Below, in pieces: positions 7,868 to 45,563 of a DNA stretch of 64,000 bases (position 1 is the first letter of the stretch; every line of letters begins with the position of its first letter). Position numbers and translations under genes: made by a program. Origin of the DNA: Nipponacmea schrenckii (Eukaryota > Mollusca > Gastropoda > Lottiidae); NCBI GenBank assembly GCA_030562195.1, contig CM060199.1, positions 31,578,338-31,642,337 of the forward strand, in the 5' to 3' direction. The notes beneath the pieces were generated by a model. It was not told the origin of the DNA, did not search any database, and saw only the letters and a program-made list of their open reading frames with translations.

Positions 7868-10800
7868 AGACTGACCCAGAGTGAAATGCCGAGTTTACCC
7901 ACATCATATTCTGCCAAATTTGGCGGCACATTGAAGAAAACGAGACTCAAACCTAAACAATTATTGGACACTTCAGAGCCCCTTTTAATTTTATATCACT
8001 TGGCAAATTATTCGCCGTTGCATAAAGCTCTGCAAACAGTTTCTGATCAACAAACGAGAAACATGACTAGACATTGCAGAATCAATCAAAATCGAGGGTT
8101 GACTGTAGTTGAAAATAAACCAGTTAACTTATTGGATAAATCTGAATCTAAGGTAATAAGTAGTTTAAACGGACTAGATGCTGAAAAAAAGTGTCAAGAT
8201 AACGTTCAAATAGGATGGGAATCAAGTGAAAGGGATTCATCATCATCTTTACCACGTGAGATGAAAAGGTATGAACACGTCGGCCAGCGACTTAATAAAC
8301 GTAGAAACCATTCAAAAGACCCCCTTTATCATATGATAAGTACATTTGGAGAAACATCCCCACCGGATGCACAGAAAACATTAGGTCCACAGTCAAATAT
8401 TTCATTATTATCAGCATATTCCCCAAAATTAGTAATAATCACATGTCGGCAAACCGATAGAAGGCAATTAAAGGGATTAGGAAGTCAGAAGGCGAACAAT
8501 GTAACGGTCAAAATAAAACCATATTCAAGAGAATGGATGAACAAGCATGTTATACTCGATATAAGACCTAGGACTAGAAGAATCCGCGTAAGAAAAAAGA
8601 TTAATCAGATTACAGTTGGGCTAGGGGAGTCGGATGCATTGTTACCTTTATCATACTCACCGAAAACGACAGTTGACTCACCTCCTTTGCTTGATAGGGG
8701 ACACATTAAAGAACATGAGTCAAATTATCAATTAGCAAATATATCTGAGGATACAAATATGCCATTACCATTACAATATTCCCTGAATTACGAGAAGAAA
8801 ATGTTGTATCAATATGTTAGAAGCCATAAAAGCAAAATCCGTCAAGGCCAACCATTTGATAAGACAAGAGTTGGATTTGAAGATATAGATGCAATTCAGA
8901 TTGCAAAACAATATTATCCCCCAGATAACAATTTGGAAGACGAAGATGAGGATCAAAATGAGGAATCAAGTTCACAGGATAGTAAAGGTGTTTGTGACAA
9001 TAGAGGTAACGATGGAGCTGATAATATTGTTGATGATATATGTTACACGAGAAACAAGAATGCGGGTAATAATGGCGCCGGTGATGATAGACAAAACATT
9101 GAATGTGATGATGAGGGTGATGGCAGAGATAATGACACAGGTGCTGATAGACTCAACGAGGGAGGTAATGATTCATGTAATGATAGACGTAATAAGAGAA
9201 AAGATAACGATGAAGTTAATAATACCGATAATGAAGCAAATTTCGTTGCCAGTAATGATGGAGGGGATAAAAGACCAGACGACAGAAGTGATGATAAAGG
9301 TAATGATAAACGTAATCACGAACGTGATGATGCTGATGATAATAAACGTAATACGGGGAGTAATGATGGGCGAAATAATGGAGATAAAGATACTGGTTAT
9401 ACTAGACATACCAATGGAGGTGGTGATGCTGGATCTAAAAAAGCTGGTGATGATGGAGATGACATAGCTTGTGATAACGGCTTTTGCAAAGCAAATAATG
9501 ATGGGAATAACGAAGTCGGTAATGATGACGGTGACAAATTTGGTGATGATAGAAGCGAGAAAGCCGGGGATGATGGTATTGATGATGATAGAGATTATAA
9601 ATTTGGTGATTATGGTGGAGACATACCTTGCAATGATGCAGGTGACAAGACTGATTACTATGGCGTTGGCAAAGCTGGTGATGATGGCGTTGACAAAGGT
9701 GATGATGATGGACAAGACAAAGCTGGTGATGAAGGAGATGAAGGAATTGGTGATGATGGAGATGACAAAGCTAGTGGTGATAAAGGTGACAAGGATAGTA
9801 ATGATGGAGGGGATGGATTGGATGATGTTAGAGATGACAAGTCTGGTAATTATGAAGGTGATAAAACTGGTTATAATGGAGATGAAAAAGATGATGATGA
9901 CGAAGGTGACACAACTGGTGATGATAGAGGCGACAAAGACCTTAATGGTGGAGGTGAAAAAGAGGGTGATGAAGGAGGTGGGAAAGTTGGTGATGATAGA
10001 GGTGACAATGATGGAGATGAAGGAGGTGAAAAGGGGGATAATGATGGAGGTGACAAAAATGATGATGTTGAAGGTGATAAAGGTGGTGATGATGAGAGTG
10101 ACAAAGATGGTGATGATGGGGGTGACAAAGGTGGTGATAATGGAGGTGACAAAGATGGTGATGATGGAGGTGACAATGGGGGTGATGATGGAGGTGACAG
10201 ATCTGATGATGATGGAGATGACAAAAGTGGTGATGATGGAGGTGACAAAGATGGTGATGATGGGGATAACAATGGGGATGATGATGGAGGTGACAAAGCT
10301 GATGATGACGGAAATGGCAAGGGTGGTGATAAAGGGAGTGACAAAGGTGGTGATGATGAAGGTGATAAAAGTGGTGATGATGGAGATGATGATATTAGTG
10401 ATAATGGAGATGTCAAAGCTGGTGATAACGAAGGTAAAAAAGCTGGCGATGATGAAGGTGACAAAGCAGGTGATGGTGGTGGTGAAAAAGCTAATGATGA
10501 TAAAAGCTATAAAGGCGGTAAAGATGTATGTGACAAGGCCTATGAGGATGGCGGTGACAAATCTGTAGATGATGCCGGTGATTATGGAGGTAACAATCGT
10601 GGTAATTGCGATGACATAGTTATTGATGATGGAACTGACAACGGTGGTGATGATGGAGGTCATAAAGCCAGTGATGATGGCGTTGTCAAAGATGGTGATG
10701 AAAGTGAAAAAGCCGGTGATGATAGAGGTGCCAAAGCTGATGATAATGGACTTGATAAACGTAGAGAAGATATCGTCAAGAAAGCTGGTGAAGAAGGAGT

Positions 10801-45000: not shown

Positions 45001-45563
45001 TGTAAATTTGATCTGATTCTACTATCTTTCATCCCACTTTTTAGGAAGTATGGTAATTGCGAATTATTTGCTACTTTACCAATAGGTTCTTTATCTTTAT
45101 TAAGTCCTCTGTCAAACTGAAATGTATTCATTATCAGTTTTTGTAAATTTAATCTGACTCTACTACTTGTAAGTCTTTGGCCGACATGTTCAGACCTTTT
45201 CATCTCATGTGATAAAGATGGTGATTTCTCTTCCGATATCCACCCATTTTGATATTTATCTACACTAGACATGTTTTCTATATCTAGTCCGTTTAAACTA
45301 CTCATACATGGTTTATTTTCAAGCTCTGTCGGGCAATTCTTATTTAGTGATCGATTTTGATTGAGTCTACAATGTTTAGTTTTTTTGCCAGTAATCGTTG
45401 GTAGAGCTTCTTGAATCGACAAATATTTTGCTGAATGAATACCACTATTTATAATCAAAGGGAACTTAAGTTTTGTAGGTTTGAGTCTCGTGTTCTTCAA
45501 TATTATGCCAAACTCAGGAGAATATGTTGAAGGTAAACTTGACAATGCACTCTGGGTCAATCT
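35902..45563 (-). CDS. Giant Pro/Ser-rich repetitive protein, paralogue of the plus-strand gene (partial)
   Basis: No described family recognised. The exon starts at 45563 just after a splice acceptor; the frame runs down to the gap. Counting from the TTG at 45560, the N-terminal module (about residues 1-265) contains 'LKNTRLKP', 'CRLNQNR', 'SSLNGLD' and 'EMKRSEHVGQRL', each matched in order by the plus-strand gene. Two copies of a 47-residue unit follow (133-226, 'NLQKLIM[ND]TFQFD'). A short acidic linker (269-280, 'EEDMDDFDDEEA') leads into about 2,880 residues of P-S-P and P-S-I triplets. The last 58 residues before the gap are Lys/Glu-rich. TTG 45560 is not a credible start: the conserved frame continues upstream of it to the acceptor, so an unseen upstream exon must supply the start and any signal peptide. 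Lack of Gly excludes collagen; an extended, polyproline-II-like structural polymer is inferred. Confidence 0.75.
36071..44720 (-). repeat. 9-bp coding repeat encoding Pro-Ser-Pro / Pro-Ser-Ile
   Basis: About 8.6 kb of 9-bp units (CCAAGTCCT and CCAAGTATT on the minus strand; GGACTTGGA/ATACTTGGA on the plus strand). Longer-range order exists: the marker GGTATACTAGGGGGACTTGG recurs about twenty times, for instance near 37954 and 38871, at variable spacing of 150-920 bp. Units at the N-terminal edge (44280-44720) are far more diverged than the core. Because the unit is a multiple of three, plus-strand frames (LGGLGIL, EDLEYL, RTWNTW) are also open and are artefacts. Confidence 0.9.
44883..45164 (-). 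repeat. Tandem duplication of a 47-residue unit in the Pro/Ser gene head
   Basis: Residues about 133-179 and 180-226 align: SRVRLNLQKLIMNTFQFDRG against SRIRSNLQKLIMDTFQFDTG, then GKVANNSQLPYFLKSGMKD against GKVANTLHLPHSLKSEMRK. The plus-strand paralogue has one looser counterpart ('YQLANIS', then 'LPLQYSLNYEKKMLYQ'). This is a non-low-complexity domain duplication and the best material for homology searches. Confidence 0.85.

Follow-up and report, generated by a model that had tools for sequence, protein, structure and literature searches.

Four linked limpet loci with a shared head may encode giant block polyelectrolytes

Background

In spidroins, sister genes combine a conserved helical N-terminal module with repeat bodies that differ strongly from one another, and the silk bodies are Ala/Gly.

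Giant repeat proteins that work as a pair have been described in Macrostomum: in the excerpted text of PMC8621496, Mlig-ap1 and Mlig-ap2 measure 5,407 and 14,794 aa, and two thirds of ap1 is a Lys/Arg-rich 'GRK' repeat. The sandcastle-worm glue relies on paired polybasic and polyacidic proteins that form coacervates; within this cement, Pc1, Pc2, Pc4, and Pc5 are polybasic and Pc3A is polyacidic, with phosphorylated serines (excerpts of PMC11277488). An Asp-rich low-complexity protein, Lotgi1|233420, is known in a lottiid (excerpts of PMC3374290), and the limpet pedal mucus proteins are mostly domain-rich, one of them with short basic repeats (excerpts of PMC7333891). Among the titles and abstract starts of the top-ranked open-access records, a literature with few subscription journals and no preprints, no comparable limpet block-polymer, radula, or giant lysine/aspartate protein appeared.

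Here, we describe a gene family of the limpet Nipponacmea schrenckii in which one head is followed by blocks of very different repeats. The window is the whole stretch of DNA analysed, 64,000 nucleotides long; it holds a plus-strand gene from 7868 (g1) and a minus-strand gene from 45563 (g2). Further head loci are called g3 and g4. The features of both genes are as follows.

7868..8950, plus strand: g1 head, 361 codons after a TTTTAG acceptor-like site, no stop, acidic linker at its end
8951..28463, plus strand: D/G polyanion block of g1, spanning about 6,500 codons with a net charge of -0.27 per residue, two frame changes
28464..28712, plus strand: g1 acidic-to-basic transition, 83 residues, same frame
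28713..35401, plus strand: g1 Gly-Gln-Arg (GQR) polycation, at least 2,229 codons, net charge +0.26 per residue, cut by the gap
35402-35901, no strand: 500-N assembly gap, cutting both g1 and g2
35902..36068, minus strand: Lys/Glu-rich stretch of g2 that follows the PSP body, 55 residues, net charge +0.33 per residue, cut by the gap, resembling the g3 linker
36069..44722, minus strand: g2 Pro-Ser-Pro/Ile (PSP) body, 2,885 codons, near-neutral
44723..45563, minus strand: g2 head, 280 codons after a TTTTAG acceptor-like site, acidic linker at its end
44894..45165, minus strand: 141-bp tandem repeat within the g2 head, 1.9 copies, 84%

Results

The shared head

A first, sequence-only reading had proposed that the two genes share an N-terminal head starting at the same exon boundary. 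Both heads lie where it placed them, and every motif that it quoted is common to both. The g1 and g2 heads align with 72 identities over 149 positions (48%, E 4e-30, BLASTP), and the Smith-Waterman score of 270 far exceeds those of 1,000 shuffled controls (mean 41, maximum 75). The common boundary is a splice-acceptor-like site, TTTTAG directly followed by AGAYTGACCCAGAGTG, the heads starting with AGA-CTG or AGA-TTG after the TTTTAG. At the DNA level, the similarity sets in some 10 bp ahead of this boundary and amounts to 68% identity over 444 bp, and a second, weaker stretch lies toward the acidic linker (E 4e-6). Farther upstream, g1 and g2 have only dispersed repeats in common (DNA comparison, tblastx, and scans for signal peptides and donor sites). 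Internal repeats are clear within the g2 head, whose self-alignment scores 148 where 40 shuffles reach 57 at most, and doubtful within the g1 head (56, against a shuffle maximum of 53).

The reading had also known of no described family with this head. In agreement with this, no Pfam family passed the cut-off for either head (none at all for g1, one sub-threshold unrelated match for g2) and no PDB chain matched either of them. The g2 head was the query used for the protein collection: 368 candidates of about 160-508 aa and 894 candidates of about 512-1,627 aa, all of them word-sharing sequences drawn from 5.8 billion proteins, included no match to it at E 0.01. A structure prediction for the g2 head from two sequences was uninformative (mean pLDDT 35.8).

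Several other elements were observed in the window. About 150 bp before the g1 head, an element at 7187-7722 has ends like GGAGCCCCTTACACGCAGTG and its near reverse complement, and is filled by a palindromic TTTCGTTTAAACGAA repeat. Broken LINE-like reverse transcriptase fragments lie upstream of g1 at 4650-6036 (minus strand), where Pfam RVT_1 exceeded the cut-off in two of the three scanned pieces. Upstream of g2, two near-identical open frames of 143 aa (46807-47235 and 47548-47976, minus strand) represent a tandem duplication, 741 bp apart. Finally, a large pair of TACACTACTATACAT-type repeat arrays lies on opposite strands at 59921-60372 and 61429-62928; g3 and g4 also have arrays of this kind in their upstream regions.

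The bodies of g1 and g2

Directly after the linker, one gene becomes an Asp/Gly polyanion and the other a Pro-Ser-Pro/Ile polymer, as had been described; that description was incomplete, since both bodies are longer and multi-block. In g1, the plus frame meets a stop at 24316 because of only two frame changes, both small, at about 24263 and at 24466-24475. The D/G body then continues to about 28460 and passes in frame into a GQR repeat of the type GQRGAQRGG, which runs up to the assembly gap; altogether, 27.5 kb are open except for these two frame changes. Each body has a basic stretch after its first block, and therefore the likely mechanism changes.

The minus frame beyond the gap, down to 31533, had been listed as part of g2. 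We found no support for this assignment: the codon bias there fits the plus-strand GQR. The join of g1 and g2 across the 500-N gap, and with it their convergent arrangement, is not sequence-proven, because a contig elsewhere on the assembly (see below) may be the misplaced end of g1. As g3 is not interrupted by this gap, it indicates the probable continuation of g2, and by this comparison a KAGKKGG repeat probably follows the Lys/Glu stretch of g2.

Copies of the head in the genome

We searched the 399-Mb assembly with the g2 and g1 heads and scored all 8 and all 17 first-look candidates, respectively; the counts are lower bounds. Both queries led to the same four loci, on one chromosome and within 236 kb, and the sole further match was at chance level (E 4.7). 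Beyond g2, g3 lies at about 140 kb and g4 at about 197 kb. Pieces of DNA shared by g2, g3, and g4 are mostly 91-96% identical, interrupted by insertions and with lower values in tandem repeats, and between g2 and g3 the shared DNA extends nearly 20 kb upstream. Hence, g2, g3, and g4 are recent segmental copies.

A single open frame of 3,247 aa in g3 runs from the PSP block through a 130-residue K/E linker into the KAGKKGG repeat. More KAGKKGG and other Lys/Arg-rich repeats come after this frame, with many frame changes and then a stop; reading by eye revealed no C-terminal domain at the end of g3. In g4, blocks of PSP, KAGKKGG, PSP, and KAGKKGG alternate in frame up to another assembly gap. 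A stop-free reading needs 52 frame changes in g3 and 24 in g4, mostly clustered. They crowd at 9.8-16 kb (g3) and 23.6-27.6 kb (g4) from the heads, while neighbouring repeat is open for kilobases. The clustered stretches look like local consensus error, and the frame changes as a whole reflect either consensus error or decay.

The search for further members, as suggested by the first reading, thus yielded four heads. The two new loci have the body type of g2, and their heads are broken. The proposed modular family holds in that a shared translated head is joined to unrelated low-complexity bodies. The term 'interchangeable' refers to one old swap, because g2, g3, and g4 are recent duplicates of a single body type. 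The family history may have started with the duplication of an ancestral head gene, followed by replacement of the body by new repeats and by two further copies of the PSP type.

Translation of the head

When the first 146 codons of the g1 and g2 heads are aligned as nucleotides, all seven indels are multiples of three, against 24 of 115 gaps in the noncoding upstream alignments of g2, g3, and g4. The latter come from three pairwise comparisons that are not all independent; the contrast has a probability of 1.7e-5 if independence is assumed and of 6.8e-3 when only gaps of at least 3 bases are counted. The dN/dS between g1 and g2 is 0.53 for the head and 0.50 for the portion before SSLNGLD, and the excess of third-position changes is marginal by itself (43 vs. 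36.3 expected, p 0.055). Taken together, these results indicate that the head evolved as a translated sequence for most of its history. Among g2, g3, and g4, the later part of the head (210 codons) is near neutrality (dN/dS 1.07, 1.05, and 0.74).

The g3 head is broken by an in-frame stop after RLTQSAL and by an extra A (a one-base insertion) in a run, and the g4 head by an 8-base deletion near its start and a one-base deletion later. Either these copies are decaying, or translation starts further in, or the consensus is faulty. We also considered the head as a 5' UTR in g2-g4, since all the frame-breaking changes of g3 and g4 precede MSSLNGLD. The in-frame indels between g1 and g2 and the dN/dS of the portion before SSLNGLD argue against it, and we consider such a reading possible for the recent copies g3 and g4.

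At least one upstream exon is expected because the head exon begins at an acceptor-like site. No phase-0 signal-peptide exon common to g1 and g2 was found in the 37.8 kb (g1) and 40 kb (g2-g4) upstream, where the candidates numbered 0, 1, 0, and 2 for g1, g2, g3, and g4. A relaxed search over 20 kb gave three candidates for g1, none of them in phase 0, and none for g2. Secretion of the proteins is therefore putative.

Constraint and charge of the blocks

Constraint was measured as the mismatches between repeat copies at their period, by codon position 1/2/3. The third position stands out in KAGKKGG of g3 (.051/.053/.261), GQR of g1 (.106/.163/.342), and PSP of both g2 (.138/.167/.263) and g3 (.145/.162/.254). 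The D/G block of g1 has no third-position bias (.146/.171/.136). Thus, three of the four block types, GQR, PSP, and KAGKKGG, are constrained at the codon or residue level, and D/G is not. The D/G block avoids stops: its frame A has none in 5,101 codons, against 33 expected from the rates of sister codons, and its frame B none in 1,300 codons, against 3 expected. For PSP the comparison is uninformative (1.9 expected), and for GQR we set aside the expected figure of 53.9, which rests on 2 of 23 sister codons.

The net charge per residue is -0.27 for D/G, +0.26 for GQR, +0.41 for KAGKKGG, and 0.00 for PSP, which is almost devoid of Lys and Arg. Aspartate makes up 1,600 of the 5,101 residues in frame A of the D/G block, and in the 6,384 residues of this block that were counted the charges sum to about -1,740. 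The charge along this block is steadier than in 500 shuffles (sd 4.7 vs. mean 6.4, minimum 4.8), which the regularity of the repeat alone could produce. A block that is free in detail yet open and acidic would be expected if composition and charge matter.

An orphan contig

The three repeat patterns counted across the genome occur in few places. All 277 exact genome matches of the KAGKKGG pattern (116 forward, 161 reverse) fall in g4 (116) and g3 (161), and all nine matches of the D/G pattern fall in g1. The GQR pattern has 11 matches, eight of them in g1 and three near C8:27374112-27374671, within an orphan contig (C8:27372064-27376300) that begins inside GQR directly after a 500-N gap, 4.2 Mb from the family. 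There, a single frame stays open for 1,411 codons, from GQR into a D/E/G block. The 927 residues read of this GQR block have third-position mismatches of.392, vs..063/.189 at the first two positions. The D/E/G block has at least 484 residues, a net charge of -0.39 per residue, and is still open at the end of the stretch read. It is a different acid repeat, because at the DNA level it did not match the g1 D/G block at E 1e-20, and the searches of the assembly with the g1 and g2 heads found no head at this contig. In the simplest reading, the contig is perhaps the 3' part of g1, which scaffolding has misplaced, and g1 would then be a minus-plus-minus triblock; alternatively, the contig is a separate gene with a missing start. 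The same assembly has mitochondrial COX1 on a 10.5-kb contig (C1012). This COX1 has 87% identity to Nipponacmea sp., 86% to Lottia goshimai, and 79% to Patelloida saccharinoides, and 64% or lower to the rest of the 120 matches listed, which places the host with the lottiid limpets, apparently as a species different from these three.

Discussion

The DNA itself shows the common head, the order and charge of the blocks, and codon-level constraint on three block types out of four. From these, we consider it about an even prospect that the four linked loci encode giant block polyelectrolytes whose charged blocks would bind each other and so build up a gel, glue, or matrix outside the cell. For this, the genes would have to be expressed, and an unseen upstream exon would supply the signal peptide. 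The head would mark all the members for the same packaging and may serve in sorting or nucleation. The D/G gene and the Lys-Gly genes would then be partners: the acidic D/G block would meet the basic GQR of its own chain and the KAGKKGG of sister proteins, and, on general polyelectrolyte physics, acidic and basic blocks of this size are expected to associate. Calcium could bridge the acidic blocks, and the neutral PSP block would be a spacer. A bolder version, which we put forward tentatively, sees the locus as a toolkit in which one head is fitted with whole charge blocks. It would combine a minus-plus-minus triblock (D/G, Gly-Gln-Arg, D/E/G) of well over 9,000 residues with partners in which a PSP spacer alternates with a Lys-Gly polycation, self-assembling by charge only.

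The same blocks could instead form a mineral-templating matrix of the shell or the radula teeth, with the acid block binding calcium or iron and the Lys/Arg blocks binding silica or anionic polysaccharide. The host being a limpet fits this idea, as do the chitin-goethite composite of limpet teeth (excerpts of PMC9263180) and the Asp-rich, Pro-rich, and basic low-complexity proteins of the Lottia gigantea shell proteome. However, the longest Lottia shell protein in the table consulted has 1,184 aa, far smaller than the proteins predicted here, and no entry with this block order is described in the excerpts of that proteome report (PMC3374290); we regard mineral templating as somewhat unlikely. 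The giant proteins could also stay inside the cell, their head and charged blocks giving rise to a structural filament or to a condensate in the cytoplasm or nucleus. This would agree with the basic motifs in the head and with the result of the search for a phase-0 signal-peptide exon common to g1 and g2. That search was crude, though, the acceptor-like exon start predicts an upstream exon, and proline-serine polymers of giant size are typically found in secreted matrices; an intracellular role seems quite unlikely to us.

Expanded minisatellites in decaying genes would account for the family in another way, the head being an old exon and the bodies neutral repeat growth that resembles protein. 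The repeats are open in several frames, two heads are broken, D/G lacks third-position bias, and g3 and g4 need many frame changes, all of which neutral growth would allow. It would hardly produce the five-fold third-position bias of KAGKKGG and the clear bias of GQR and PSP, the zero stops in D/G where 33 were expected, the absence of the D/G and KAGKKGG patterns from the rest of the 399-Mb assembly, or the block joins in frame. This explanation is already disfavoured, and we hold it to be very improbable.

If giant block polyelectrolytes are indeed encoded, the family would show how whole polymer chemistries are exchanged while the head stays constant, and its products would exceed in size every block polyampholyte of the sources cited here. 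Limpet materials (glue, shell, or radula) would be linked to coacervate physics, and the blocks would offer sequence designs for materials that set in water. Genes of this kind easily escape notice: assembly gaps interrupt their repeats in this genome, the database searches made yielded no relative, and one gene may be split between two places of a chromosome.

Comparison with known systems

Compared with spidroins, the limpet family has charged or Pro/Ser bodies, g3 revealed no C-terminal domain at its end, and neither the g1 nor the g2 head matched the spidroin N-terminal domain (Pfam; no PDB match). The GQR and KAGKKGG blocks resemble the 'GRK' repeat of Macrostomum ap1, and the giant size is common to both systems. 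Unlike the limpet heads, ap1 and ap2 carry C-type lectin, vWD, TIL, and TSP-1 domains; Pfam detected none of these in the g1 and g2 heads, and the bodies, read by eye, consist of repeats only. Moreover, no shared head is described for ap1 and ap2 in the excerpts of PMC8621496, whereas the limpet genes have a shared head and low-complexity blocks. The D/G body is Asp-rich and of low complexity, like the Asp-rich shell proteins (aspein, asprich, Lotgi1|233420), yet the excerpts of PMC3374290 describe no entry in which a common head is followed by acidic blocks joined to basic ones. As in the sandcastle-worm cement, the limpet family has polyacidic and polybasic members, judging from their net charges, which would make them putative partners. 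Adhesives of this coacervate type are secreted and bear DOPA or phosphoserine; for the limpet proteins, the upstream scans yielded no signal-peptide exon shared by g1 and g2. In the worm, the charges are on separate proteins, whereas in the limpet both occur within one head family, with aspartate as the acid.
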